Source: JBFMHD01 sp040752395 [NCBI: Candidatus Hydrogenedentota bacterium] (GTDB lineage: Bacteria; JBFMHD01). From it: DNA of 16,964 bases. The notes under the pieces were generated by a model. That model did not search any database. It saw only the letters and a program-made list of their open reading frames with translations, and was not told the DNA's origin. The stretch's first letter is position 1; every line of letters begins with the position of its first letter. Of this stretch, positions 280 through 16,964 are shown piece after piece. A program made the position numbers and the translations under genes. Where the stretch lies: assembly GCA_040752395.1 (NCBI GenBank), contig JBFMHD010000032.1, positions 1 to 16,964 on the forward strand, read 5' to 3'.

Positions 280-1500
280 ATGAAAAAGAATTATCCTGTA
301 TTACTTGTCAGTCAGTTTCTTGGAGCCTTTGGCGATAACGCTGTACTTGCAGTCATACTCGGTCAGCTCACTTTCTTACATCTAAAAGGTCTAATCTCTG
401 AAACTGAGATAGGTATAGCAAATGCTATATATACATCGCTCCTTTTTATACCATACATCCTCCTTGCACCATATTCAGGTTTTCTAAATGACAGGTTTGC
501 AAAAACCGACTGGTTATTAGGCGGCAACATTATCAAACTTGCCGGCAGTATAATGATAGTTTTAAGTTTAATATCAAGTAAATATCTGCAGGGGCTTGGT
601 TATCTTATTATAGGGATCGGTGCTTGTATCTACTCACCTGCTAAATACGGTATACTACCTGAGATACTACCACGTGAGCAGCTCGTAAAGGCTAATGGTA
701 CGATTGAGATGCTCACAATTGTTGCAATTTTAAGCGGAACACTAATAGGAGCGAGAATCGTTGATAAATTACCTGTTTTTGTTTGCTATCTTATAATTAT
801 AGTTATCTATCTCATCTCAAGTATTTTGATTCTATTTATGCAAAAAACACCTAAAAATTTAGAGACAAAATTAAAAGAGAGCATTGGTGAGTTTTACAAT
901 AATTTGATGTATCTAATAACTCATATCCGTCTCTCCAGGGTACTTTTAGGTACTGCTATATTCTGGGTTTGCGGTGCCTGTATGAAAATGAATATGCAGC
1001 CCTGGGGCCTGCAGGTTCTAAAATTGGAAACTAACACAGAGATAGCATATCTCGGGTTATGGCTAAGTTTTGGTATTATGGCAGGGAGCATCTTATCAGG
1101 CCAACTTCATAAAATCGGTGATTTAACCTGGACGAGAAGATATGGCTGGCTGCTTGCTATCTTGTTATTGTCTCTTGGTTTTATAACCAGGCACAATTTA
1201 GTAATTATTTTACTTTTATTAGCAGGCTCGAGTGCAGGCCTGTTTCTGATCCCGTTAAATGCGGTTCTGCAGGCTGAGACATCAAAACAAAAAATGGGCA
1301 AAACTATAGCTACTCAAAACTTTATAGAAAACATAGCTATGATAATCGGCGGTATATTAATATTTTGTGCAAGAAAAATAGGTTTGTCATCCTCACAAAT
1401 TTTTATATACTTGTCTATTATAGTGTTTTTTATAGTCTACTTTTTAAAATTTACGTCCATTTGTAGTAATAACTCAGAAGGTGTGAAAAAGCAGTTATAG
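280..1500 (+). CDS. lplT: Lysophospholipid transporter LplT (MFS)
   Basis: This is a 406-residue major facilitator superfamily protein with about 12 hydrophobic segments, close to the E. coli LplT length of 397. LplT flips lysophospholipids, mainly lysophosphatidylethanolamine, across the inner membrane for re-acylation by Aas. Family-like features are QFLGAFGDN in TM1 (residues 12-20), an MFS loop GFLNDRFAK (68-75) and YSPAKYGILPE (118-128) followed by LVKANG. The ATG at 280 is preferred because GGTGA (268-272) sits 7 nt upstream and complements the 16S rRNA tail. An in-frame TTG at 265, 5 nt after GGGGGAGG, would add five residues and cannot be excluded. aas follows after 132 bp on the same strand, the usual partner, so co-transcription is likely. 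Confidence 0.93.
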   Translation: MKKNYPVLLVSQFLGAFGDNAVLAVILGQLTFLHLKGLISETEIGIANAIYTSLLFIPYILLAPYSGFLNDRFAKTDWLLGGNIIKLAGSIMIVLSLISSKYLQGLGYLIIGIGACIYSPAKYGILPEILPREQLVKANGTIEMLTIVAILSGTLIGARIVDKLPVFVCYLIIIVIYLISSILILFMQKTPKNLETKLKESIGEFYNNLMYLITHIRLSRVLLGTAIFWVCGACMKMNMQPWGLQVLKLETNTEIAYLGLWLSFGIMAGSILSGQLHKIGDLTWTRRYGWLLAILLLSLGFITRHNLVIILLLLAGSSAGLFLIPLNAVLQAETSKQKMGKTIATQNFIENIAMIIGGILIFCARKIGLSSSQIFIYLSIIVFFIVYFLKFTSICSNNSEGVKKQL

Positions 1501-1523
1501 TAAGATAACGAAAGAAGTAGACC

Positions 1524-1575
1524 CCCACACCAATTGTCAAAAAACAACAGATGTTCAATGAATAATTGGTGTAGG
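1524..1575. repeat. Inverted repeat in the lplT-aas spacer
   Basis: The arms CCCACACCAATT (1524-1535) and AATTGGTGTAGG (1564-1575) pair at 11 of 12 positions around a 28-nt loop. No T-tract follows the right arm, so it does not look like an intrinsic terminator. It could be an mRNA processing or stability structure within an lplT-aas transcript, or a small repeat insertion. Confidence 0.55.
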
Positions 1576-1632
1576 AACAAAAAGCAAGATTAATGATTTC
1601 TACAAAAACGTGTTTTAAAGCAGGATCGGATA

Positions 1633-3777
1633 ATGTTTAAAGCTATTTGTAAATTTTTGGTAAAATTATTATTTCGGTTCAAAAGTTATAATGAAGCTGT
1701 TGTAAATACCAATGGTCCGGTACTTTTGCTACCTAACCATGTATCCTGGCTCGACTGGATGTTTATAGGTGTCTGTCTTGAGGATGATTGGAAATTTGTT
1801 ACTTCAAGAGAGGTTTCGCAGCGGGGCTGGCTTTATAAAAAGATTATGGACACACCGCGAACCTTTACAATAGACCCTGCTTCCTCGTTTGCCGTGAAAG
1901 AGATCGCAAGATATTTACAAAAAGGCGGGAGGCTGGTTTTATTCCCTGAAGGTCGTATAACAAAAACAGCAAGTTTAATGAAAATATATGAAGGTACCGG
2001 GTTTTTAATTTATAAAACAAACCCAAACGTGATCATAGCTTATATCCGTGGCGGAAATCGAACCAAATTCGCAAGTCATTCTGGCTGGAAACAATTTTTC
2101 CCAAAAGTTACAGTACATTTCAGCAATATATTAAAACCACCAGAATTGCATAACACCTCAACTGTCCAGGCACGTAAAATCCTGAGCAACTGGTTACACG
2201 ATAAAATGGTTGAACATCAGTTCAATGTAGAGATGAAATTCGGGCCAAAGACAATACCATGCGCAATAAGTGAGATTTCTAAATTAAAAGCCTCTCGGAC
2301 TATATTAGAAGATGTAAATAGAAAAACTTTAAAATATAGGGACTTAATTATCGGCTGCGATTTGCTCTCAGACAGATTATCTAAAATACTGCATAATAGC
2401 GAAAAAAATATCGGTGTTTTAATGCCTAATGTTAATGCTACGGTTGCACTTTTGTTGAGTCTATGGGATATAGATAAAGTTCCGGCTATATTGAATTACA
2501 CCTCAGGTCCTGCGATAATGCTTATCTGTTCACAGCTTGCACAATTAAAAACGATTATCACTTCATCTGAATTTGTTGAACGAGCAAAGATCAATCTTGG
2601 TGATTTTAAAAAAGTTGGGATAAAAATCATATTTCTTGAAGATATAAAAAAAAGTATCTCGATAATTAAAAAAGTACTCAAGGTTTTTAAATATTTTACC
2701 TCTGGTATTTCATTAAAAGATAGATCAAGAAGTATTGAAACCGATATTGCGGTAATTTTATTTACAAGCGGTTCTGAGAACATACCAAAAGGTGTTGTTC
2801 TCACTCACAGGAATATAATCTCAAATCTTAAACAGATGCTCTCAGTAATAGATATCCAGGACAGTGACCGCGCCTTTAATGCGCTCCCTTTATTTCACAG
2901 TTTTGGCTTGACTATCGGTATGCTATTACCTTTATTTCGTGGTATCTTTACATTTATCTATCCAACACCGCTTCATTACCGTGCGATCCCAACGGTCATA
3001 TATGATAGGAACTGCACAATAGTGCTTGCTACTAACACATTTCTCAATGGTTATGCGAGAAAGGCTCATTCCTATGATTTCCGAAGTGTGCGTTATCTCT
3101 TTGCAGGTGCTGAAAAACTTCAAGAAGAGACAAAAGACCTCTGGTCGAGAAAATACGGTATCCGAATCTTAGAAGGATACGGTGCCACTGAGTGCAGCCC
3201 TTGTGTAAGCGTTAATACGCCGTTAACACCAAAACACAATTCAGCAGGCAGACTTTTACCAAGCATAGAATACAAAATAGAGCCAGTTGAAGGAATCACT
3301 GATGGCGGCAGACTCTTTGTTCGTGGCCCTAATATTATGTATGGCTATCTAAACCCTGATGAAAACAAAAAGTTTAAAGCATTAAACGGCTGGTACGATA
3401 CAGGCGATATAGCCAGCATAGATTCTGAAGGTTTTGTGCATATATTAGGCAGACTTAAACGGTTTGCAAAGGTAAGCGGCGAGATGGTGAGTCTAACCGC
3501 GGTAGAAGAGATTTTGAGTTCCTCTTTCCCTCACTACGGTTTACATTTCAATATAGCAATAATGAGTAAGCAGGACGAGGACAAGGGCGAGGTATTAATT
3601 GCTGTAACAAATGAGCCGAGACTAAAGCTTGAGGAGCTAAGAGCAGCTATAAAAGAGAGAGGTTTAAGTAATCTATATATCCCGCGTGAGATAAAATTAG
3701 TTAAAGAGATTCCTAAACTTGGCAGCGGAAAAACTAACTACCGCGAACTCGAAAACCTGCTTAAAACTTGTCAGTAA
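1633..3777 (+). CDS. aas: Bifunctional acyl-ACP synthetase / lysophospholipid acyltransferase Aas
   Basis: At 714 residues this matches E. coli Aas (719) in length and order of domains. Residues 1-200 are a PlsC-type acyltransferase with the HX4D motif (H36, D41) and FPEGR (104-108). Residues about 210-714 are an AMP-forming acyl-ACP/acyl-CoA ligase with a P-loop TSGSENIPKG (378-387), YGATE (516-520), GWYDTGD (586-592) and the catalytic lysine in GSGK (K700). Aas activates a fatty acid onto ACP and transfers it to the sn-1 position of 2-acyl-lysophosphatidylethanolamine at the inner membrane. AGGA at 1622-1625 lies 7 nt before the ATG. The 3' end overlaps the convergent FAH-family gene by 17 bp. 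All key residues seem intact. Confidence 0.95.
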   Translation: MFKAICKFLVKLLFRFKSYNEAVVNTNGPVLLLPNHVSWLDWMFIGVCLEDDWKFVTSREVSQRGWLYKKIMDTPRTFTIDPASSFAVKEIARYLQKGGRLVLFPEGRITKTASLMKIYEGTGFLIYKTNPNVIIAYIRGGNRTKFASHSGWKQFFPKVTVHFSNILKPPELHNTSTVQARKILSNWLHDKMVEHQFNVEMKFGPKTIPCAISEISKLKASRTILEDVNRKTLKYRDLIIGCDLLSDRLSKILHNSEKNIGVLMPNVNATVALLLSLWDIDKVPAILNYTSGPAIMLICSQLAQLKTIITSSEFVERAKINLGDFKKVGIKIIFLEDIKKSISIIKKVLKVFKYFTSGISLKDRSRSIETDIAVILFTSGSENIPKGVVLTHRNIISNLKQMLSVIDIQDSDRAFNALPLFHSFGLTIGMLLPLFRGIFTFIYPTPLHYRAIPTVIYDRNCTIVLATNTFLNGYARKAHSYDFRSVRYLFAGAEKLQEETKDLWSRKYGIRILEGYGATECSPCVSVNTPLTPKHNSAGRLLPSIEYKIEPVEGITDGGRLFVRGPNIMYGYLNPDENKKFKALNGWYDTGDIASIDSEGFVHILGRLKRFAKVSGEMVSLTAVEEILSSSFPHYGLHFNIAIMSKQDEDKGEVLIAVTNEPRLKLEELRAAIKERGLSNLYIPREIKLVKEIPKLGSGKTNYRELENLLKTCQ

Positions 3778-4612
3778 AGGATGTTTTTTGAACAAATACA
3801 TTCAGAGGCTTGGTAATAAATATATCTTTTTTTAATTCTTTAAATTTTTTATCCTCGCTTTCTTTAACATAATTTTTCAATTTCCCTATGCCCTCTATTT
3901 CAACCTCAATCACATCCCCATCATTTAATCTACCAACCCCGGCCGGCGTACCTGTAAGAATTACATCCTGTGCCTCCATCTCAATAAAATTGCTGATATA
4001 ACTTATCAGTTTAGGAACATTGAACAACATATCATTTGTATTAGAATCCTGTACAACTTCTCCATTCCTGTATGTTCTTAATCTTCTGTTTTTCCATATT
4101 TTGTTATCATCAAGAATATTACCGATGGGACAAAAAGATTTAAATGATTTAGACCTGTACCATTGAATATCTCTTTTTTGTAAGTCTCTTGCTGTTACAT
4201 CATTTGCACAAACATAACCTGCAATATAATCGAGTGACACAAACTCCGGCACTTTATAGCAATTTTTAAGTATCACGACCCCTATTTCACCCTCATACTC
4301 AACCTGTTCACTCTCGTTTGGTAGATAAATAATATCACCCGAGGTAATAACCGATGCAGGGTCTTTATAAAAAACCAGCGGTTCTTTAGGAACCTCTTGT
4401 CCTAATTCTTTAATATGTTCTTTATAATTAAGGCCTATACCAAGGACCCGCTTAGGTGAAATTACTGGTAATAATTCTATATTACCAAGTCCTACCCTCT
4501 CACCTGCTGGTTCTAAGTGAGTAAATAGACTACCTGTGTATATTTCTATCTCATTTTCATCAAAACTGCCCCAGTATTCCTGATTCTTATACTTAAACCT
4601 TAGCCATCTCAT
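3761..4612 (-). CDS. Fumarylacetoacetate hydrolase (FAH) family protein
   Basis: This 283-residue protein is an FAH-superfamily enzyme of the YcgM/HpcE/acylpyruvase type. The N-terminal region (1-50) is the short family prefix, and the catalytic fold runs from about 54 to 250. The likely metal ligands are E107 and E109 in YEGEIG and D138 in CANDVTARD. Other family motifs are GLNYKEH (60-66), KSFKSFCPIG (155-164) and LTGTPAGVG (219-227). These enzymes hydrolyse or decarboxylate C-C bonds of 2-oxo/1,3-dicarbonyl acids; the substrate here is unknown (acylpyruvase or oxaloacetate decarboxylase are possible). About 33 residues after the fold form a lysine-rich tail. The ATG shares ATGA with the dapB stop, implying translational coupling. 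Confidence 0.88.
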   Translation of the reverse strand: MRWLRFKYKNQEYWGSFDENEIEIYTGSLFTHLEPAGERVGLGNIELLPVISPKRVLGIGLNYKEHIKELGQEVPKEPLVFYKDPASVITSGDIIYLPNESEQVEYEGEIGVVILKNCYKVPEFVSLDYIAGYVCANDVTARDLQKRDIQWYRSKSFKSFCPIGNILDDNKIWKNRRLRTYRNGEVVQDSNTNDMLFNVPKLISYISNFIEMEAQDVILTGTPAGVGRLNDGDVIEVEIEGIGKLKNYVKESEDKKFKELKKDIFITKPLNVFVQKTSFTDKF

Positions 4613-5412
4613 TTGGGGATCCCCAGAACATCCATCATGGTATAAAATCCTTTAGTTTTATCTTTAAGAAACAAAAGAGCTTTAATAGCACCAATAGCAA
4701 AAGTATCTCTGCTTTGGGCTCTATGGATAAGCTCTATTCGTTCACCTATACCGGCAAAAATAATTGTATGTTCACCGACAATATCTCCGCCTCGAACCGC
4801 AAAAATCCCTATCTCGTTATCTTTTCGCTCCCCGACTATACCATCTCTGCCATAAACCACTACGTCATTTATATTTTTTCCCAGAGTCGAGGCTATGTTT
4901 TCAGCAATTTTTTTAGCAGTACCTGAGGGTGCATCGATTTTATGTTTGTGGTGTGCCTCAACTATCTCTATATCAAATCCTTTACCGAGTATTTTTGCGA
5001 TCTCTGGCGCAATTTTAAATAATAAATTAACCCCTATGCTCATATTTGGTGATTGAACTACAGCGGTTTTTTCACCTATCTTTTTTAATCTATCAATAAA
5101 TTTATTATCAAGTCCGGTTGTGCCGATCACAGCTTTAATATTTGTTCTATCTATTATTTCAATTAATTCTTTAGTTGCATCTTTAGTAGAGAAATCCACA
5201 ACGCAATCTGATTTTTTAACGACCTTTTCTGCATCATCGCTCACTTCTATTCCTATCTCATCAAAACCAACAAGTCTTCCTATATCTTTCCCTATTTCAG
5301 AGTTACCTTTAAATTCCAACCCCCCTGTTAGCTCAAGTTCTTTATTCTGCAAAATAAGTGCAGCAATCCTTCTACCCATTCTACCACAAATACCATTTAT
5401 ACAAACACGCAT
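4609..5412 (-). CDS. dapB: 4-hydroxy-tetrahydrodipicolinate reductase DapB
   Basis: This is a full-length 267-residue DapB, which reduces the hydroxy-tetrahydrodipicolinate formed by DapA, using NAD(P)H, in the lysine/diaminopimelate pathway. The N-terminal Rossmann fold has GICGRMG (7-13) and GTTG (97-100). The catalytic and substrate-binding part has SPNMSIGVN (121-129), EAHHKHKIDAPSGTA (152-166) with the catalytic His pair and Lys, and RGGDIVGEH (207-215). AGGAGG (5422-5417) lies 4 nt before the ATG and belongs to a repeat-derived 30-nt block. It is followed directly by the FAH-family gene with a 4-bp overlap. The other DAP gene in the window, asd, lies more than 5 kb away on the other strand. 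Confidence 0.96.
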   Translation of the reverse strand: MRVCINGICGRMGRRIAALILQNKELELTGGLEFKGNSEIGKDIGRLVGFDEIGIEVSDDAEKVVKKSDCVVDFSTKDATKELIEIIDRTNIKAVIGTTGLDNKFIDRLKKIGEKTAVVQSPNMSIGVNLLFKIAPEIAKILGKGFDIEIVEAHHKHKIDAPSGTAKKIAENIASTLGKNINDVVVYGRDGIVGERKDNEIGIFAVRGGDIVGEHTIIFAGIGERIELIHRAQSRDTFAIGAIKALLFLKDKTKGFYTMMDVLGIPK

Positions 5413-5415
5413 AAA

Positions 5416-5625
5416 ACCTCCTCTGAAAAACGCTGTAACTCTAATAATTCGGGGTACAGGCTACAGGCTACGGACTACAGCCGGCTGGAGCCAAAAGCCA
5501 AAAGCCTGCTGAAAAGTCTTGAGTCTCGAGTCCTGTTTTGACTCACGACTTGCAACTTGTGACTCTTTTCATATCATCTTTAGTTTTTCATCCTTACCCC
5601 TATCTTTTTCATACTTTGTAGAACG
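5416..5625 (-). repeat. Modular repeat leader between glnB and dapB
   Basis: The whole glnB-dapB spacer is repeat material, read here toward dapB. Parts on the plus strand are: the 30-nt Shine-Dalgarno block (5416-5445); a heptad tract of eight 7-mers (5452-5507) such as GGCTACA, GGCTACG, GACTACA, GGAGCCA, AAAGCCA; a second heptad-spaced tract (5519-5565) based on GAGTC/GACTC words; a 22-bp block at 5570-5591 identical to 16890-16911; and a block near 5599-5625 resembling 11184-11215 in reverse complement. The segment 5459-5492 is identical over 34 bp to 16833-16866. The glnB stop codon abuts one edge. Confidence 0.85.
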
Positions 5626-5970
<345 letters not shown>

Positions 5971-6043
5971 TTACAATATTACAAATTTATTAAATTTGCT
6001 CAAGATATTTTTACGTGTATACCTTGCTTGCATCTATTCTATC

Positions 6044-6089
6044 ACGGATAAAGTGGGACTGTCCCGTCAAACCTTCTTTTTTCATCCGT
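6044..6089. repeat. Small nested inverted repeats upstream of glnB
   Basis: ACGGAT (6044-6049) and ATCCGT (6084-6089) are perfect inverted copies. Inside them lies the perfect hairpin GGGAC-T-GTCCC (6055-6065). The structure sits about 80-125 bp upstream of the glnB start, in a 510-bp stretch without an intact gene. It could be a small repeat element or an operator; I recognise no sigma-54 or NtrC site here. Confidence 0.4.
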
Positions 6090-6134
6090 AAATCACCCTC
6101 ATCTCATTTTTTATAGTATCAATCAAATAGTGCA

Positions 6135-6259
6135 TTGTGACATTAATTTCTGACCGTAGATTTTTTTATGTCATTCCCGCGAAAGCGGGAATCCATACGC
6201 TTTTACTGGATTTCACGGTCAAGCCGGGGAATGACAATGTGCTGAAATTTATGTCACAA
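6135..6259. mobile_element. Nested palindromic MITE/REP-like element
   Basis: This is a 125-bp element with outer inverted repeats TTGTGACATTAATTTCTG (6135-6152) and CTGAAATTTATGTCACAA (6242-6259), matching at 16 of 18 positions. Inside are a second inverted pair GACCGT (6152-6157)/ACGGTC (6215-6220) and a perfect 8-bp stem ATTCCCGC-GAAA-GCGGGAAT (6173-6192). The word TCATTCCC (6171-6178) recurs inverted as GGGGAATGA (6226-6234). The TCATTCCCGCGAAAGCGGGA core resembles small palindromic repeats common in many bacterial genomes. No ORF is encoded, so it would be non-autonomous. It lies in the gap between the 160-residue protein gene and glnB. Confidence 0.7.
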
Positions 6260-6285
6260 GCCAATAATAAGAATAATTTATTAAA

Positions 6286-6426
6286 TTAAGTACAGAAATC
6301 TAATGGGCTGTAGAATCGTTTGGGGATAGTGAAAACAAAATATCTGTGTGAAACCCTAGCAAGAACATTGGTTGTTAAATGATGAGCAAAATTGAGAGAG
6401 AGCAGAGAGATAATGTGCCGCGCTTT
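6286..6426 (-). pseudogene. Relic of an IS91-like transposase
   Basis: A minus-strand reading frame contains NVLARVSHRYFVFTIPKRF (within 6313-6390). This resembles the region after the zinc-binding domain in IS91/IS801-type transposases, typically of the form xVLxxVPHRxxVFxIPKxLR. The match stops abruptly: the next residues (YSPLDFCT) and the upstream residues do not continue the family, and the zinc-finger cysteines are missing. It is therefore a short decayed fragment. It lies beside the palindromic element at 6135-6259. The identification rests on a remembered motif over about 26 residues. Confidence 0.5.
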
Positions 6427-6475
6427 AATGTTTATAAAAAAATATAATGAATAATTAGAAAATAAAATTTTGATA

Positions 6476-6958
6476 TTACCACAGTATGAATTTCCCTGGT
6501 CTGAAGTTCGGATCATTTGTCAACAATTCTTTTCCTATAACTAATCCGCCGATGACCTTTGCACCAATAGCAACTCCTCCTATTGCGATATATCCAACGG
6601 CAAGTCCGCCAAGACTCAAAAGCCCAAACGTTAGTCCGCCTAAACAGAATACGCCGATTGAAATGCCGCCAACTGATATTAATCCGATTGAGATATTTCC
6701 TATGGCAATAATACCTTTTGCAATCCGAAATTTTCCTGTTTGCGAATCTAACCATATTCCATGGACGATATGAACTAATGGATACCCCCATAATGTTTTC
6801 TTGCTTTTATATTCAAACCCACACGTACTTTTAGTACGAAGCACCTGGTCAAGTTTTTCTTCTATATTTTGCAGCCGTTTTTCCATTTCATTATCTTTCA
6901 TCATATAATCGGTAGCGCCGAGTTTCCATTGTCTCGACTCAACACAAGTTTGTATCAC
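6476..6958 (-). CDS. Glycine-phased pentapeptide-repeat protein, function unknown
   Basis: This 160-residue protein has a charged N-terminus with a short predicted coiled coil (about 25-40, MEKRLQNIEEKLDQVL), a linker with WGYPLVHIVHG (57-67), then about 12 hydrophobic pentads from residue 83 to 142. Glycine recurs every five residues (87, 92, 97, 102, 107, 112, 117, 122, 127, 132, 137, 142). Every second pentad ends GG, giving a decapeptide period such as ISIGL-ISVGG. This could form a beta-helix-like solenoid or a membrane-associated sheet. Similar repeats occur in uncharacterised bacterial proteins, as I recall. The GTG start follows AGGA by 3 nt; ATGs at 6904, 6901 and 6886 are alternatives, and the last would start exactly at the coiled coil. 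Confidence 0.7.
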   Translation of the reverse strand: MIQTCVESRQWKLGATDYMMKDNEMEKRLQNIEEKLDQVLRTKSTCGFEYKSKKTLWGYPLVHIVHGIWLDSQTGKFRIAKGIIAIGNISIGLISVGGISIGVFCLGGLTFGLLSLGGLAVGYIAIGGVAIGAKVIGGLVIGKELLTNDPNFRPGKFILW

Positions 6959-6976
6959 TATTCCTAATTATGTCAA
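6949..6976 (-). promoter_or_regulatory. Candidate promoter for the pentapeptide-repeat gene
   Basis: On the minus strand TTGACA (6976-6971) is followed after 16 nt by TACAAA (6954-6949), a perfect -35 with a 4-of-6 -10. If used, transcription would begin near 6942, downstream of the GTG at 6958, and favour one of the later ATG starts (6904, 6901 or 6886). Confidence 0.3.
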
Positions 6977-7004
6977 TATAATATTTGTATCAATGAAACC
7001 TATA

Positions 7005-7056
7005 AAACCAGAACCATCCCTGTTTAATCTGTTTAATCGGTTTAATCGGTTAGTTC
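7005..7056. repeat. 21-bp dispersed repeat followed by nonamer tandem repeat
   Basis: AAACCAGAACCATCCCTGTT begins a 21-bp word (7005-7025) that recurs at 8017-8037 with two mismatches in the same orientation. It runs into a nine-base tandem: TGTTTAATC (7021-7029), TGTTTAATC (7030-7038), GGTTTAATC (7039-7047) and a decaying GGTTAGTTC. The two 21-bp copies bracket the 66-residue gene, the nucleotidyltransferase and the IS110-like relic. Confidence 0.65.
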
Positions 7057-7119
7057 CACGTATACAGTCTTTCTGAATGTGAAATAATATTTTATAATTC
7101 CCAAGAACATACCGCTTAA

Positions 7120-7320
7120 TTATGATATTCCCTGATTGGATAGTAATGCATCCTGCAGCCTGATAACCCTTCTTGGTAACGTTCTTCTTATTGCCCTCCA
7201 TAAAAGCCATGTTTCCTCAAGTTTCTTTAACCTTTGATAAGGCGTGGTATTTTTCACTACAAATTCAAGATGTTCATAAGGAATGATATATTCGTGTTTA
7301 AAGTCAGAACCTTTATTCAT
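7120..7320 (-). CDS. Small protein partnered with a nucleotidyltransferase
   Basis: This 66-residue basic protein starts 8 nt before the end of the upstream nucleotidyltransferase gene, so the two are translationally linked. AAAGGA lies 6 nt before the ATG. Residues 25-40 (TTPYQRLKKLEETWLL) form an amphipathic helix of the TPxxRLxxLEE type that I associate with small genes next to MNT/AbiEii-like nucleotidyltransferases. The following RAIRRTLPRRVIR is strongly basic. By analogy with two-gene nucleotidyltransferase modules it may be the cognate small component, for example of a toxin-antitoxin-like pair. No domain is recognised with certainty, and the C-terminus (LLSNQGIS) may be disturbed by nearby insertions. 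Confidence 0.6.
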   Translation of the reverse strand: MNKGSDFKHEYIIPYEHLEFVVKNTTPYQRLKKLEETWLLWRAIRRTLPRRVIRLQDALLSNQGIS

Positions 7321-7807
7321 TATTTATCCTTTCAATTTCTTTTAAATTCCTGATATCTATTAAATCCTGGGGTCGCGAAGCCATTAGTTTCAATTTAATA
7401 AGATGTTTGATGCTGATTACAGGGACACGCATATTGGCAATCTTTACTCTCTTCAACTCTTTTTCAATTTTAGAAAATTTTATCGGCTCAGTTATAAACA
7501 TATCTACCAGTTTTAAATGGTCCTTAAGATGAAAAAAAGAAAAAACCACCATCCCCTTTTTATCAATCCACTCCCTACGTTTCTGTTTGTCAATAAATTC
7601 TTCTTTTTTTACAGGTACTTTTGGACGATACCCCAGTTCATACATAATATCAAAAAATTTATTCAGGTTTTGATCGTTCAGCTTTACTATCAGATCAAGG
7701 TCGACGGTAAATCTCGTATACCCGTGCAAAACAACAGCAACTCCTCCTGCCACAGCATATTTTATCTTATTTTTATTCAGTGACTTAAAGATGTCTTCGT
7801 ATATCAT
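7313..7807 (-). CDS. MNT/AbiEii-type nucleotidyltransferase
   Basis: This 164-residue protein has the polymerase-beta nucleotidyltransferase core: VAGGVAVVLHGYTRFTVDLD (19-38) with the Gly-Gly turn (G21-G22), the H-G-x-x-R segment and the metal-binding pair D36/D38. A helical region follows, then VISIKHLIKLKLMASRPQDL near the C-terminus, a feature of AbiEii/DUF6036-like proteins in which a lysine-rich helix precedes a final R-x-x-D-L. Such proteins often act as the toxin of type IV-like pairs or as orphan NMP/tRNA transferases; the target here is unknown. No Shine-Dalgarno is visible, and TATAAT (7818-7813) ends only 5 nt before the ATG, so a leaderless mRNA is possible. The gene is divergent from glnE. 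Confidence 0.82.
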   Translation of the reverse strand: MIYEDIFKSLNKNKIKYAVAGGVAVVLHGYTRFTVDLDLIVKLNDQNLNKFFDIMYELGYRPKVPVKKEEFIDKQKRREWIDKKGMVVFSFFHLKDHLKLVDMFITEPIKFSKIEKELKRVKIANMRVPVISIKHLIKLKLMASRPQDLIDIRNLKEIERINNE

Positions 7808-7838
7808 ATAAAATTATAGACAATATGGCATGATCGGC

Positions 7839-7863
7839 ACTCTATAAAAATATATTATAGAGT
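7839..7863. promoter_or_regulatory. Perfect palindrome upstream of the nucleotidyltransferase
   Basis: ACTCTATAA (7839-7847) and TTATAGAGT (7855-7863) are perfect 9-bp inverted repeats around 7 nt. The minus-strand reading contains TATAAT (7859-7854), so the palindrome overlaps a possible -10. Centred about 45 bp upstream of the start, it is well placed for an operator in an autoregulated module. The -35 is unconvincing (GTGACA at 7887-7882 fits only a 15-nt spacer to GATACT). Confidence 0.4.
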
Positions 7864-7891
7864 ATCAAAAATATCTAATGATGTCACGCCT

Positions 7892-8002
7892 ATGAGTATA
7901 ATACGGTATGTTGGTATGGATGTCCACAAAAATTTTATTTTACAGAGGGATACCTGCCAACATTGTGACCCCTATTCGATATTGAGCCAATGGTCTTTTT
8001 AG
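7892..8002 (+). pseudogene. N-terminal relic of an IS110-family transposase
   Basis: An ATG-started frame reads MSIIRYVGMDVHKNFI before losing resemblance and stopping at 8000-8002. The segment YVGMDVHK is the hallmark N-terminus of IS110/IS1111-type DEDD transposases, with the first catalytic Asp in GMDVHK. The full enzyme is about 300-400 residues, so only the first 16 or so remain. The remainder (ILQRDTCQHCDPYS) is unrelated. ATGTTGG (7908-7914) and CCAACAT (7957-7963) form an inverted repeat within the relic. It lies between the nucleotidyltransferase promoter region and glnE. Confidence 0.55.
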
Positions 8003-8016
8003 TAAAAGAGTTTGAA

Positions 8017-8037
8017 AAACCTGAACCGTCCCTGTTT
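8017..8037. repeat. Second copy of the 21-bp dispersed repeat
   Basis: AAACCTGAACCGTCCCTGTT starts this copy; it matches 7005-7025 at 19 of 21 positions in direct orientation. It ends 53 bp upstream of the glnE start. Confidence 0.6.
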
Positions 8038-8090
8038 TTCGCCGGTTTTTGCTTGATTAGATATGTGGTAATAATTAAAATATAAAGTAT

Positions 8091-11036
8091 ATGAACAATA
8101 TAGGTACTGCGATCAGTAATGAGATATTTAAATTAATCAAAGATACTAATATCTCATCACCTCAATTAGCTGAGAAGAATTTAATCTCTATAGTTAATAA
8201 AGAAGAGTATGTACCATATTTTTTAGAAATTATTGACGTTTTAATTAGCGGTCTTAAATCAGCGGGTGATCCTGATAGAGTTCTTTGTAGTCTTGAAAGA
8301 TTTTTTTGCAATGCAAACGACCACATATATCTTTTTAGAAAATTTATAGAAGAACCCCATCTGTTAAAAAAGCTTGTGGTCCTGATTGATAACAGCATTT
8401 TCTTATCTGAATATCTTATAAAATATCCTATGCTGTTCTTTGAATATACTAAAAAAAATATCTTTACTGATAAAATCAGTGTTGATTACTTAAATGCAGA
8501 TTTTGAAAAGATTGAGAAATCAGGTATCTTTCTAAAAGATTTAATCTGTTTTCACCATAATACACTTTTTCATATAATCTATCGTCATCTTATCCTTGGC
8601 ATTTCTTTACAGGAGTATACAGAAGAGTTATCAGAGCTTGCCGGGTTTGTTATTAACAGGGTTTATAATCAATCGTTACAGGATTTAATTAATACTTACG
8701 GTACGCCGTCAAATAATTCTCAACTTATTATTATAGGTGTTGGAAAATTAGGTGGGATGGAATTAAACTATAGTTCTGATATTGATTTAATCTTTTTTTA
8801 TACAGAGGATGGGTATACAGAAACAGAGACTCAGCTCAAACAATTAACGAATAATGAATTTTTTTCTCGTCTCACAGATACAATTATCAAAACACTTGGA
8901 GCAAAGACAGAGGACGGGTGGTTATATCGGGTTGATATCCGGCTTCGGCCAGATGGCGAGACTGGTCCTTTATGTTTAGGTCTTGATGCGGCTTTAACTT
9001 ATTATTCTACGCGTTCAGCTTTCTTTGAGAAACAGGCTATGACAAAAGCAAGAGTTATTGCAGGTGATTTTAATAAGGGAAACGAATTTTTGGTTGGTAT
9101 AAAAAAACTGTTTTTTCCGCGTCACGGCGAGGATACTATACTTAACGATATTTATACAATGAAATCAAAGATAAATGCTGAACTCGGGAATATTACTGAA
9201 CTTACTTTTAATGTCAAACTTGGTTATGGCGGTATAAGGGAGATAGAATTTATTGTTCAGGCTTTGTTAATTTTAAATCTTGGTTCTTTCCCTCATATTC
9301 TCAACATCAATACTCTACAATCATTAACAAATTTAAGAGATGCCAGGATAATATCTAATGTTGAATTCGAGTTACTATTTAATTCTTATATTTTTTTACG
9401 CGAACTTGAACACAGTCTCCAGCTGCTTTCATTCAGACAGACTCATACTCTACCAGTTGATGAGAGGACCCTTGAGCAAATCGCAAAACGGCTTGGATAT
9501 AAAAATTTTAAGGATTTACTCAATAGATTTATGAAAACAACAGAGATGGTCCACCAGCTATATACAGATAAAATAAAAATACCGGCTTCGTTACAGTCGG
9601 ATTTAAAACTACTTCTTGAAAATATCGACATAATAAAGAAAAAAAATATTCTCGAAAGATACAAATTATTTGACTATAAAAAGGCATTGCAAGACTTATA
9701 TTATATTCAGTATGGCCATAAAAAAAGCCCTATCTATGAAGTCTCCACTGAAAAATTTATAGGTTTTTTGCCATCATTATTATCTTCAGTTTCAACAAAA
9801 TTTAACCCTTCCTTTACACTCTCAGCTATCGAACAAATATTTAATAATTTTACAGCAAAAGGTATGTTGTTTGATCTGCTTTCAAAGAACGAATTTCTTA
9901 TGTATTTGTTCTCCGAGATAGCATCAAAAAGTGAAATGCTGTCAAGCTATCTGGTAAAATATCCGGCGCTTTTTGATATACTTGTTGATTTTGATGAATT
10001 ATTTAAATCTGTAAATGATGAGAGTTTTGATGATACAGTTCACACCCATTTACTTAATTATAAAATAGAAAAACATTTTAAAACAGGTGTTCAGTATATT
10101 CTCGGTATTAACAATGTTTCTTCAACTCTATTGAACTATACTAAAATTGCTGATAATATATTGAGTGTTTTAACCAGATATTTTTATAGCAAAGAAGAGA
10201 GTGGATATTTCCTTGCATCTTTAGGAAAACTTGGTTCCTGTGAACTTGGCATCGCCTCTGATCTCGATTTATTATTTATACATAACGATGAAATCTCTGA
10301 ACCACTAACTAAAGCTACAAAACTTCTCAATTTTTTAAGTGAATCGACCCCTTCTGGAAAACTCTATAGAGTTGATGCCCGGCTCAGACCCGAAGGCGAA
10401 AAATCACCTATCTCAATACACATAAACCACTGTCTTCAATATTATCTCGATCGAGCCCGAGACTGGGAAAAACTTGCTATGACAAGACTGAGATATATAA
10501 GTGGTGATAAAAAATTGTTTGGGCTCTTTCAAAGTAAAGTATCTGAATTCGTATACGGCTCTACTCCGCCACCACCTTCAAACATTCTTGAAATGAAAAA
10601 AAATATCGAAATATCGCATAAAGATAAAAATGATTTCAAACATAATGAAGGTGGATTGATGGAAATAGAGATGCTTTTACAACTTATTAATATTCATCTT
10701 GGTAAAATAGATACTAATGTAAGATATGCCCCACCTCTTATTACACTTGAAAATTCTGTCACGCACGAGATAATCTCTCTCCAAGAATCCTTCACAATCA
10801 GAGAAGCATATATTTTATATAGAAGTATAGAAACAGGTCTAAATCTTATAGGACTCCAAAAAACAAATATATTCCCCACAAATAAAGAAATCTTAACTAA
10901 ATTATATTATACATTGCAGGATAATATGAAATTTGCAATAAATCAGAACGAATTTCTAAATTATATGGCTACTATCAGAGCAAAAATAAGAAAAATATTT
11001 AACAGCATTATTTATAGACTGAGCCCGCAGTCATAG
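8091..11036 (+). CDS. glnE: Glutamine synthetase adenylyltransferase / adenylyl-removing enzyme GlnE
   Basis: This 981-residue protein (E. coli GlnE has 946) carries two nucleotidyltransferase halves joined by helical regions. The N-terminal (deadenylylating) half has GVGKLGG (216-222), SDID (229-232), YRVDIRLRPDG (279-289) and GYGGIREIEF (378-387). The C-terminal (adenylylating) half has LGKLGS (711-716), SDLD (723-726), YRVDARLRPEG (759-769) and GGLMEIEML (854-862). GlnE attaches AMP to, and removes it from, a tyrosine of glutamine synthetase under PII and glutamine control. Metal-binding Asp pairs are present in both halves, so both activities look intact. No clear Shine-Dalgarno precedes the ATG. 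glnB lies beyond the accessory patch, and glnA is not in the window. Confidence 0.95.
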   Translation: MNNIGTAISNEIFKLIKDTNISSPQLAEKNLISIVNKEEYVPYFLEIIDVLISGLKSAGDPDRVLCSLERFFCNANDHIYLFRKFIEEPHLLKKLVVLIDNSIFLSEYLIKYPMLFFEYTKKNIFTDKISVDYLNADFEKIEKSGIFLKDLICFHHNTLFHIIYRHLILGISLQEYTEELSELAGFVINRVYNQSLQDLINTYGTPSNNSQLIIIGVGKLGGMELNYSSDIDLIFFYTEDGYTETETQLKQLTNNEFFSRLTDTIIKTLGAKTEDGWLYRVDIRLRPDGETGPLCLGLDAALTYYSTRSAFFEKQAMTKARVIAGDFNKGNEFLVGIKKLFFPRHGEDTILNDIYTMKSKINAELGNITELTFNVKLGYGGIREIEFIVQALLILNLGSFPHILNINTLQSLTNLRDARIISNVEFELLFNSYIFLRELEHSLQLLSFRQTHTLPVDERTLEQIAKRLGYKNFKDLLNRFMKTTEMVHQLYTDKIKIPASLQSDLKLLLENIDIIKKKNILERYKLFDYKKALQDLYYIQYGHKKSPIYEVSTEKFIGFLPSLLSSVSTKFNPSFTLSAIEQIFNNFTAKGMLFDLLSKNEFLMYLFSEIASKSEMLSSYLVKYPALFDILVDFDELFKSVNDESFDDTVHTHLLNYKIEKHFKTGVQYILGINNVSSTLLNYTKIADNILSVLTRYFYSKEESGYFLASLGKLGSCELGIASDLDLLFIHNDEISEPLTKATKLLNFLSESTPSGKLYRVDARLRPEGEKSPISIHINHCLQYYLDRARDWEKLAMTRLRYISGDKKLFGLFQSKVSEFVYGSTPPPPSNILEMKKNIEISHKDKNDFKHNEGGLMEIEMLLQLINIHLGKIDTNVRYAPPLITLENSVTHEIISLQESFTIREAYILYRSIETGLNLIGLQKTNIFPTNKEILTKLYYTLQDNMKFAINQNEFLNYMATIRAKIRKIFNSIIYRLSPQS

Positions 11037-11126: not shown

Positions 11127-11196
11127 TTTTGCGCTCTACACTATTGGGTTCTTGGGTTCTTGCGTTATTGGGTTATTGCGTTTTTGCGCTCTACAC
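11127..11196 (+). repeat. Octanucleotide array between 15-bp direct repeats
   Basis: TTTTGCGCTCTACAC occurs at 11127-11141 and 11182-11196. Between them run in-phase 8-mers: TTGGGTTC (11144), TTGGGTTC (11152), TTGCGTTA (11160), TTGGGTTA (11168), TTGCGTTT (11176) and TTGCGCTC (11184, which opens the second flank). A shorter version of the array lies reversed at 16916-16964. The downstream AATATATGAAAAAGATAGG resembles the dapB leader near 5600-5620 (reverse complement). The preceding 11037-11126 holds only AT-rich DNA with a T-rich stretch; no clear terminator. Confidence 0.8.
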
Positions 11197-11210
11197 AATA
11201 TATGAAAAAG

Positions 11211-11281
11211 ATAGGAGTTAGGAGTTAGAAGTTTGTAATAATAGCTCCGAACTCCGAACTTCGAAGTTCTTTCAAAGGGGG
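11211..11281 (+). repeat. Heptanucleotide tracts and ribosome-binding region upstream of asd
   Basis: Two short tandem heptad runs are visible: GGAGTTA (11214), GGAGTTA (11221), GAAGTTT (11228); and CTCCGAA (11245), CTCCGAA (11252), CTTCGAA (11259). They end in GTTCTTTCAAAGGGGG (11266-11281), a diverged relative of the GTTTTTCAGAGGAG block that precedes dapB and the FecR gene, and supply the asd ribosome-binding purines. Confidence 0.7.
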
Positions 11282-11293
11282 TTGATAACTGCT

Positions 11294-12376
11294 ATGGATA
11301 AATTAAGAGTTGGTGTTATTGGTGCCACAGGTATGGTTGGCCAGAGGTTTGTTACCCTGCTTGAAAACCATCCCTGGTTTGATACTGTATTAGTTGCTGC
11401 AAGTGCTTCATCAGCGGGTAAAACCTATGAAGATGCGGTAGCTGGCCGCTGGACCATAAATAAACCAATCCCATCCCTTATTGCTAAACTTATTGTTTAT
11501 AACGCACAGGAGATAGCTGATATCGCTCAAAAGGTCGATTTTGTATTCTGTGCCGTAGATATGTCTAAAGACGAAATTTTAAAATTAGAAGAAAATTATG
11601 CTAAAGCAGAGGTACCAGTGGTATCTAATAACTCGGCACATCGTGGAACTATGGATGTCCCTATGATGATACCTGAGATTAATAGTTCTCATACTGCAAT
11701 TATAAATAAACAAAAAGAACGTCTTGGAACAAAAAGAGGGTTTATTGCGGTAAAACCGAACTGTTCTTTACAGAGTTATACGCCAGCGATACATCCATTG
11801 ATTGACTTTGAACCAACGGATATTATCGTCGCTACTTATCAAGCGATTTCAGGTGCAGGTAAAACTTTTGAGACCTGGGCTGAAATGATAGATAATGTTA
11901 TCCCTTTTATAAAAGGTGAGGAAGAGAAAAGTGAACAGGAGCCTATGAAGATCTGGGGTAGAATTGAGGGAGACCGAATCATAAACGCTACTTCACCAAA
12001 AATATCAGCTCAATGCATCCGTGTCCCTGTTACTGATGGCCATCTTGCCGCAGTTTCCGTAAAATTTAAGAAGAAACCAAAAAAAGAAGATATAATTTCA
12101 AGATGGAAGTCTTTTGAAGGCGAACCCCAAAAATTAAATCTCCCTTTAGCTCCAAAACCGTTCTTAACATATTTCGAGGAAGATATCAGACCACAAACAA
12201 AACTTGATAGAGATATCAGCAACGGCATGGGTATAGCTATCGGACGATTAAGAGAAGATAAAATCTTCGATTATAGGTTTGTATGTCTATCTCATAATAC
12301 TATTCGGGGGGCAGCAGGTGGTGCTATACTTATTGCTGAACTTTTATTCAAACAGGGATACCTTGGTAGAAGATAG
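11294..12376 (+). CDS. asd: Aspartate-semialdehyde dehydrogenase (archaeal/fungal-type)
   Basis: This 360-residue enzyme reduces aspartyl phosphate to aspartate semialdehyde, the branch-point to lysine/DAP, threonine and methionine. It has the NADP-binding [10 protein letters not shown] (10-19), the catalytic cysteine in KPNCSLQS (C157), SGAGK (186-190) and the catalytic histidine in RVPVTDGH (H250). The early [13 protein letters not shown] and AASxxSAGK segments fit the archaeal/fungal-like subfamily rather than the E. coli-type one. ATG at 11294 gives the usual N-terminus; an in-frame TTG at 11282 touches the GGGGG and is unlikely. The stop codon lies in the first unit of a heptad tract, so the last residues (GRR) may derive from repeat DNA. 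It follows glnE after 257 bp and is not clustered with dapB. Confidence 0.94.
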
Positions 12377-12440
12377 AAGACAGAATACAGAAGACAGAAA
12401 ATAAGAAATGAGAAATAAGAAGTAAAAAGTGAAAAGTATC
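12371..12440 (+). repeat. Ten-unit degenerate heptanucleotide tract downstream of asd
   Basis: Ten contiguous 7-mers run in one register from 12371 to 12440: AGATAGA, AGACAGA, ATACAGA, AGACAGA, AAATAAG, AAATGAG, AAATAAG, AAGTAAA, AAGTGAA, AAGTATC. The strand is nearly pyrimidine-free. The asd stop codon (12374-12376) lies in the first unit. The tract fills most of the 108-bp spacer before the cyclase-like gene. Confidence 0.85.
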
Positions 12441-16729: not shown

Positions 16730-16826
16730 ACCTCCTCTGAAAAACATTGTAACTCTAATGATATCAAGTAGAAGCAAGAAGCAAGAAAACGTCTGAATCT
16801 CCTCTGAAAAACTTCGCAACCCTAAT
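16730..16826 (-). repeat. Duplicated Shine-Dalgarno leader block upstream of the FecR gene
   Basis: Two copies of a 30-nt block lie at 16730-16759 and 16797-16826. Read toward the gene, the near copy begins ATTAGAGTTAC and ends TTTTTCAGAGGAGGT. The near copy matches the dapB leader block (5416-5445) at 28 of 30 positions; the far copy is more diverged (GGGTTGCGAAG) and has AGAGGAGAT. Between them is a heptad run AGAAGCA (16770), AGAAGCA (16777), AGAAAAC (16784). Confidence 0.85.
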
Positions 16827-16832
16827 AATTTG

Positions 16833-16911
16833 GGCTACAGGCTACGGACTACAGCCGGCTGGAGCCCGAAGCCCGGAGCCTGAAGCCAACATATCATCTT
16901 TAGTTTTTCAT
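16833..16911 (-). repeat. Heptad tract and conserved block shared with the dapB leader
   Basis: Eight in-phase 7-mers run from 16833 to 16888: GGCTACA, GGCTACG, GACTACA, GCCGGCT, GGAGCCC, GAAGCCC, GGAGCCT, GAAGCCA. The first 34 bp are identical to 5459-5492. The following 22 bp (16890-16911) are identical to 5570-5591. In the dapB copy these two parts are separated by an extra heptad-spaced tract, so the modules vary in content. Confidence 0.88.
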
Positions 16912-16915
16912 GCTT

Positions 16916-16964
16916 TGTGTAGAGCACAAAAACCCAAGAACCCAATAGTGTAGAGCGCAAACCG
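16916..16964 (-). repeat. Short copy of the octanucleotide array
   Basis: The reverse complement reads TTTGCGCTCTACAC, TA, TTGGGTTC, TTGGGTTT, TTGTGCTC, TACAC. This is the asd-upstream array (11127-11196) with half as many 8-mers between the same flanking words. It is cut by the window end. Orientation relative to the downstream gene is the same as at asd. Confidence 0.8.

Follow-up and report, generated by a model that had tools for sequence, protein, structure and literature searches.

Cyanobacterial repeats (STRR) are degenerate heptads in intergenic regions, and intergenic seven-base repeats have so far been described piecemeal (in Xanthomonas, Nostoc, and Beggiatoa), with no established function in the literature compared here. 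The closest described systems are documented in three papers. Two Xanthomonas species carry GGGAATC heptamers as convergent pairs, in 70 and 75 cases; the G-rich repeat lies on the coding strand near stop codons and mostly on the non-coding strand near start codons, and the repeats are reported to have no general association with mobile elements (PMC4692102). In the trnL intron of Nostoc, the P6b stem is built from one of two heptad classes, and a similar structure results from either (PMC4476775). TAACTGA heptads are positioned just upstream of the start codons of unrelated genes in Beggiatoaceae, Cyanobacteria, and Bacteroidetes (PMC4679880).

Here, the window denotes the whole 16,964-nt stretch of DNA that was analysed. 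Three of its genes, dapB, asd, and fecR, are preceded by leaders that are mosaics of recurring pieces, with hairpins of facing tandem heptads set into them:

Positions 5413 to 5625, minus strand: dapB leader, between the glnB stop codon (5626-5628) and the dapB start (5412).
Positions 11127 to 11281, plus strand: asd leader, in the gap after the glnE stop at 11036.
Positions 16730 to 16964, minus strand: fecR leader, with the fecR start codon at 16720; it runs to the end of the window.

Pfam identified DapB, P-II (glnB, upstream of dapB), the FecR domain, GlnE, and semialdehyde dehydrogenase (asd), in agreement with the gene names given in a preliminary description of this DNA. The leader coordinates and the existence of repeat blocks reported there were reproduced by exact-match comparison, and its proposal of a modular leader family that lies in one orientation ahead of unrelated genes, and that did not arise by gene duplication, is supported. 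All three leaders share the strand of the downstream gene, but this has a chance of 1 in 4 and is weak evidence alone, and a block with a ribosome-binding site must point that way. The sample comprises three leaders, with that of fecR cut by the contig end; such a cut is compatible with an assembly that broke at a multi-copy repeat, which is only suggestive.

Leaders were compared by exact matches of at least 11 nt, scored along the coding direction of the downstream gene, and by 300 dinucleotide shuffles per pair. Matches between dapB and fecR measured 34, 22, 16, 14, and 12 nt, those between asd and fecR 31, 14, 11, and 11 nt, and that between dapB and asd 15 nt (TATGAAAAAGATAGG), whereas the longest shuffled matches were 12, 13, and 12 nt for the three pairs. 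Only one antisense match of at least 11 nt was identified among the leaders (11 nt, asd-fecR), and the five other window gaps (before MFS, Aas, glnB, glnE, and the cyclase-like gene) had no match of at least 11 nt with the leaders in sense or antisense. Sharing is therefore pairwise, and no long block occurs in all three leaders. The individual blocks are as follows:

Positions 5599 to 5613, minus strand, and 11201 to 11215, plus strand: TATGAAAAAGATAGG block common to dapB and asd, an exact match.
Positions 5570 to 5591, minus strand, and 16890 to 16911, minus strand: 22-bp ATGAAAAACTAAAGATGATATG block of dapB and fecR, an exact match.
Positions 5459 to 5492, minus strand: 34-bp block in dapB, common with fecR, comprising the end of the 5' arm, the centre, and the 3' arm of hairpin H2 (below).
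Positions 5416 to 5431, minus strand: Shine-Dalgarno block GTTTTTCAGAGGAGGT of dapB.
Positions 16730 to 16745, minus strand: Shine-Dalgarno block GTTTTTCAGAGGAGGT adjoining the fecR start.
Positions 16797 to 16812, minus strand: second, upstream copy of GTTTTTCAGAGGAGGT in the fecR leader, with one mismatch.
Positions 11142 to 11188, plus strand: TATTGGGT-like octamer array in the asd leader, with GCGCTCTACAC on either side.
Positions 16916 to 16958, minus strand: short octamer tract in the fecR leader, between GCGCTCTACAC (16948-16958) and TGCTCTACACA (16916-16926).
Backbone tail, in pattern form: ATYATTAG...GTTTTTCAGAGGAG.

The 22-bp, 34-bp, and Shine-Dalgarno blocks, which had been ascribed to all three leaders, are present in those of dapB and fecR but absent from that of asd. 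Similarly, the GCGCTCTACAC word is exact in the asd leader (11131-11141 and 11186-11196) and in the fecR leader, where TGCTCTACACA is a second copy with one mismatch, but dapB has a degraded form only; this counterpart, CGTTCTACAAA, carries two mismatches, a level at which the word is no commoner than expected by chance (five matches are reached in 16 of 200 shuffles). The TATTGGGT-like octamer tract is confined to the asd and fecR leaders. Matches to GTTTTTCAGAGGAGGT number 4 in the window versus 0.22 expected, the fourth being a 3-mismatch copy inside glnE, and the two copies in the fecR leader lie 67 bp apart. Collectively, the recurring pieces include a CTCTACAC word, a ATGAAAAA block, and a ribosome-binding tail (ATTATTAG...GTTTTTCAGAGGAGG), and no leader keeps all of them. 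Inspection by eye for a short leader peptide (ATGAAAAAGATAGG...) led to its rejection, since the candidate frames stop after 3-10 codons and no ribosome-binding site accompanies them consistently.

In each leader, the main heptad tract comprises two opposed halves: a first array of heptads and, behind it, a second array that is nearly the reverse complement of the first. The heptad repeats had been recognized in the preliminary description, but the opposed-arm architecture, which is their most informative feature, had been overlooked. The hairpins, and one array that lacks this design, are:

Positions 5510 to 5569, minus strand: dapB hairpin H1, GAGTC-type and then GACTC-type units; 15 of 23 pairs, with 147 of 5040 permutations as good.
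Positions 5457 to 5508, minus strand: dapB hairpin H2, GGCTNNN/NNNAGCC; 15 of 23 pairs, with 16 of 5040 permutations as good.
Positions 11213 to 11269, plus strand: asd hairpin, GGAGTTA/CTCCGAA; 15 of 21 pairs, with 202 of 5040 permutations as good.
Positions 16832 to 16887, minus strand: fecR hairpin, GGCTNCN/NGNAGCC; 16 of 22 pairs, with 66 of 5040 permutations as good.
Positions 12365 to 12437, plus strand: one-directional heptad array of AGAAGAC type, overlapping the end of asd, ahead of the adenylate-cyclase-like gene; no opposed arm.

Pairing was evaluated against all 5040 orders of the seven heptad columns in the 3' arm, a control that leaves the period and the composition unchanged. 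The real arms paired better than 96.0% (asd), 97.1% (dapB H1), 99.7% (dapB H2), and 98.7% (fecR) of the column-permuted arms; taken over three independent hairpins, the combined p is about 3e-4 (1e-3 if fecR replaces dapB H2), values that are generous given that the arms were picked by eye after folding. When the 3' arm was reversed but not complemented, asd and the two dapB hairpins retained 11, 10, and 11 pairs versus 15 in each real hairpin, whereas fecR retained 16 versus 16. Predicted pairs per hairpin amounted to 15.2-19.4 inside versus 0.4-3.4 outside, and in each of the eight arms tested the lag-7 identity (0.61-0.93) exceeded that at lags 5, 6, 8, and 9. Folding predicts hairpins that pair in a seven-base rhythm, which in dapB H2 takes the form of four pairs and then a three-by-three internal loop; in both dapB H2 and fecR, GGCTNNN and NNNAGCC units flank a GCCGGC centre. 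Opposed halves were not observed in the short AGAAGCA tract of the fecR leader (16770-16787) or in the octamer tracts of asd and fecR. The five 7/8-nt arrays of the window sit in intergenic gaps, one of them overlapping the asd end, ahead of the adenylate-cyclase-like gene, in which Pfam identifies a cyclase N-terminal domain. Either selection for pairing or a mutation process that copies one arm from the other would leave words that vary while pairing is kept.

Compared with the GGGAATC heptamers of Xanthomonas and the GGGGA(T/C)T heptamers of Anabaena-Nostoc, the hairpins of the window have the same seven-base unit and are likewise mostly intergenic; as in Xanthomonas, where many convergent pairs are capable of forming stem-loops, a G-rich unit lies by the upstream stop and its C-rich complement by the next start, and the strand placement described there implies the same polarity as in the window (PMC4692102). 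Unlike the quadruplex heptamers GGGAATC and GGGGATT, the words here are GGAGTTA, GGCTNNN, and GAGTC-type, and unlike the Xanthomonas and Nostoc repeats as described, they occur within mosaic leaders, two of which have a common ribosome-binding tail (PMC4692102). GGG tracts, as read by eye, number three in the asd octamer tract and two in fecR, which places them outside the quadruplex heptamers. The Nostoc trnL P6b stem is similar in being made of seven-base repeats whose different words yield a similar structure but, unlike the leaders, belongs to a group I intron (PMC4476775). TAACTGA heptads resemble the leaders in lying ahead of unrelated genes and in the recurrence of the same word in distant lineages; they are, however, direct repeats (169 sets versus one inverted), and canonical ribosome-binding sites are reported to be rare in the regions that hold them, whereas the dapB and fecR leaders keep one (PMC4679880). 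In having seven-base tandem units located between genes, the repeats of the window resemble the broad class of intergenic heptameric repeats; they fall outside REP/BIME and MITE elements, in that no termini are common to the three leaders and the heptad words differ.

The folding energy of the whole leaders was no better than that of dinucleotide shuffles (z of -0.67, -0.69, and -0.82), and the predicted ensemble left the Shine-Dalgarno cores neither clearly open nor clearly hidden, with partial pairing that followed no consistent pattern. No match to Rfam was obtained at the gathering score anywhere in the window. A sense-strand sigma-70-like promoter was not found in the three leaders, and a transcript start inside the leader is therefore not supported. 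Likewise, no terminator-like site (stem and T run) was found in sense orientation in any of the three leaders; one occurs on the antisense strand (11266-11245).

We assign a probability of roughly 0.5 to the reading that the leader spread by duplication and that its heptad hairpin, by inference, acts as an RNA spacer whose arms turn over but stay complementary. The leader would be transcribed together with the downstream gene, and in the RNA the hairpin would form a stable spacer from the upstream stop codon to the ribosome-binding site, one that may protect or insulate the message rather than sense a ligand. Whole gap segments would have spread by being duplicated and gene-converted, with the ribosome-binding tail included in two of three cases. 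The arms would grow, shrink, and be replaced in sevens by slippage and be retained only if they still pair; the words would thus change and the pairing would stay because turnover is kept only when the arms pair. The window links seven-base repeats to mosaic leaders, two of these sharing a ribosome-binding tail, and function becomes testable as the question of whether pairing or sequence matters.

The strongest rival is that the hairpins are a mutational by-product without function, in which slippage generates the tracts, template switching at hairpins generates the inverted halves, and selection only excludes the product from genes. We regard this as possible but rather doubtful. It accommodates the ordinary folding z-scores of whole leaders, but it sits poorly with pairing that beats most column-permuted arms and with the conservation of the leader tail, including its ribosome-binding site. 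The occurrence of similar words in unrelated bacteria is in its favor. TAGGAGT arrays were identified in 7 of 72,556 plasmid records, from five genera (Phaeobacter, Nostoc, Kovacikia, Sulfurovum, and Dolichospermum), versus one record, over 72% of the query, for the reversed-word control, and TATTGGGT octamers were identified in three plasmid records (Vibrio, Photobacterium, and Escherichia); a GGCTACA array had no match in plasmids. The leaders thus resemble cyanobacterial intergenic heptads in that the TAGGAGT word is present in cyanobacterial plasmids, but differ in that the strict test for an opposed arm was passed by 0 of 25 7-nt arrays from the scanned cyanobacterial DNA, although one 8-nt array of Nostoc did pass. 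At the level of whole leaders, asd matched plasmids mainly through its octamer and heptad tracts, and fecR had only short, weak matches to plasmids and phages.

Opposed heptads were then sought in viral contigs. The opposed GGAGTT pattern matched four of these (L086-L089), with the hairpin extending past the matched letters in each. The reversed-word control matched one contig (L096) at two places; since this match is itself a true opposed heptad hairpin, the specificity of the GGAGTT word is modest. Among whole genomes from samples of two phyla, 0 of 296 and 0 of 282 contained the opposed GGAGTT pattern. A GGCT version of the pattern matched contig L097, where a GGCTACT/AGTAGCC hairpin lies directly ahead of AAGGAGCAATCATG, the start of a 70-aa frame; in L086, AGGAGTTA/TAACTCC lies before CCAGGAGCCACAACGTG, where a 259-aa open frame begins. 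Phage head, portal, or terminase proteins are encoded by L086, L088, and L089, weak tail-protein matches were obtained for L097, and the one protein of L087 that was examined is a DNA methyltransferase. Viral contigs contained no match to the tail pattern of dapB and fecR, to the GGCT block pattern, or to a 25-mer octamer word. Two candidates were set aside upon inspection by eye: the 20-mer GAAAAACTAAAGATGATATG, which lies within coding sequence in two viral contigs, the same stretch twice, and was taken as unrelated, and a single viral-contig match to GCGCTCTACAC...ATGAAAAA, which is in coding sequence with the other blocks absent. As a separate observation, the hairpin of L096 occurs twice (2720-2778 and 6347-6405) in opposite orientation with reverse complementary loops, and looks like a mobile or recombining unit.

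A de novo scan for 7-nt arrays covered 104 sequences (1.76 Mb), with an opposed arm defined as lying within 90 nt of or inside the array; its opposed-arm table omits the small context loci L081-L085, L090-L095, and L098. In the pattern-selected viral contigs, 26 of 39 arrays had an opposed arm (permuted units predict 1.8, and the reversed unit gave 2), a rate that is inflated because the contigs were chosen for holding at least one such hairpin; in L089, where one array pair was selected for, 13 of the 20 other arrays had one. The window yielded 2 of 4 (both asd; 0.12 expected, reversed unit 1), and 80 asd loci yielded 3 of 12 (1.4 expected, reversed unit 5). The many arrays that lack an opposed arm, in Kovacikia (0 of 22; 0.4 expected, reversed unit 7), Nostoc (0 of 3), Sulfurovum (0 of 1), and Phaeobacter (0 of 1), speak for a mutational product. 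The reversed-unit controls, of which 2/39, 1/4, 5/12, and 7/22 passed, indicate that certain units nearly match their reversal.

A paired-arm scan for opposed 7/8-nt hairpins detected two in the 17-kb window (asd and fecR), 11 in 14 kb of L089, three in 100 kb of Kovacikia, and two in the 80 unrelated bacterial asd loci (1.36 Mb), both in Anaeromyxobacter. Hairpins with units of 5, 6, 9, or 10 nt numbered zero in L089 and the window, one in L088, and eight in the asd loci. Both automatic scans missed dapB H1 and H2, and the paired-arm scan also missed the pattern-selected hairpin of L088. A claim that cyanobacterial arrays are strictly one-directional was softened, since Kovacikia gave none in the strict test but three opposed hairpins in the looser scan. 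The Anaeromyxobacter hairpins (L010, 8790-8868; L016, 7679-7777) are of the opposed CCCGTGG/CACGGGC type with the C-rich arm first.

The 11 opposed heptad and octamer hairpins of L089 span 503-9377 and use several different words. By a crude frame caller, they fall in 7 of 13 gaps between frames of at least 60 aa, six of these gaps being consecutive (5349-9364; five heptad, one octamer), which argues against a mutational by-product; conversely, 4 of the 11 fall inside frames of that caller, which speaks for it. Certain of these frames may be wrong: judged by eye, the hairpin at 1642-1706 seems to separate a stop codon from a start codon. The G-rich arm comes first in 22 of the 26 hairpins from all sequences scanned, rows that are not independent (11 derive from L089 and 2 are copies in L096), and in both of the automatically found hairpins of the window. 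This order was rejected as a rule because four hairpins are C-first (one of two in L088, those of L010 and L016, and that of L087, where two hairpins are merged).

These phage contigs indicate that the opposed design can occupy consecutive gene gaps. A broader proposal holds that opposed-heptad hairpins are a general gap-filling punctuation of bacteria and phages, with free turnover of word and length, conserved pairing and polarity, and a dedicated activity that rebuilds one arm from the other and seeds GGAGTTA, GGCTACT, GGATTTT, and TATTGGGT across phyla; we judge this improbable. These leaders were not described in the results of a literature search that covered few subscription journals. 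In kind, the opposed heptad hairpin is not new, with published relatives in Xanthomonas and heptad stems in Nostoc (PMC4692102, PMC4476775). What is new, as far as the literature searched extends, is the mosaic leader with a ribosome-binding tail, the presence of several words on one genome fragment, and the occupation of consecutive gaps in a phage contig.

Insertion of a small mobile element (MITE or REP-like) ahead of the three genes, a concrete form of the mobility that the preliminary description had contemplated, would explain copies ahead of unrelated genes and an inverted structure, and a direct repeat of 11-15 bp does flank the octamer tract of asd (with one mismatch in fecR), dapB having a single degraded copy and no tract. 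The anatomy of the leaders does not support such mobility: shared segments break off at different points, no fixed terminal inverted repeat is held in common, heptad words differ among copies, and no target-site duplication of the leader is seen. Moreover, the dapB leader occupies exactly the space from the glnB stop to the dapB start, its sequence filling that space up to the ribosome-binding site. Transposition is accordingly an unlikely source of the leaders. Least probable, and in our view very unlikely, is the regulatory role raised in that description, taken here as a cis-acting RNA, be it a riboswitch, an attenuator, or a protein site, through which genes of the lysine pathway and others would be co-regulated. 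The dapB and asd genes do both belong to the lysine/diaminopimelate pathway and the leaders have blocks in common, but these two share only 15 nt, the strongest sharing is with the non-pathway gene fecR, whole-leader folding energies are ordinary, no Rfam family was matched, and the only terminator-like site is antisense.

Other features of the locus were recorded alongside the leaders. The asd gene (11294-12376) has scattered relatives among the best 80 of 189 matches, mostly in Myxococcota, Deltaproteobacteria, and Clostridia, with one spirochaete, at 63-71% identity (the best, at 71%, to a Myxococcales MAG); this distribution suggests that asd may have been horizontally transferred. None of these best 80 of 189 loci contained the leader DNA of the window by blastn. 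For glnE, 10 of 60 genomes examined from one phylum had a match, the top-scoring one at 32% identity. In the gap upstream of glnB, an inverted element at 6169-6236 (TGTCATTCCCGCGAAAGCGGGAATCC ... GGGAATGACA), which we take to resemble the ATTCCC-type dispersed repeats (dRS3-like) of other bacteria, is flanked by a 23-nt inverted repeat (6128-6150 / 6244-6266; 83% complementary), and together these look like a MITE-like unit. A direct repeat, AAAACC(A/T)GAACC(A/G)TCCCTGTTT, with copies at 7004-7025 and 8016-8037 that are 91% identical and 1012 bp apart, brackets a nucleotidyltransferase-like gene, and a nine-base tandem array (GTTTAATCG, 3.3 copies) is located at 7022-7051.
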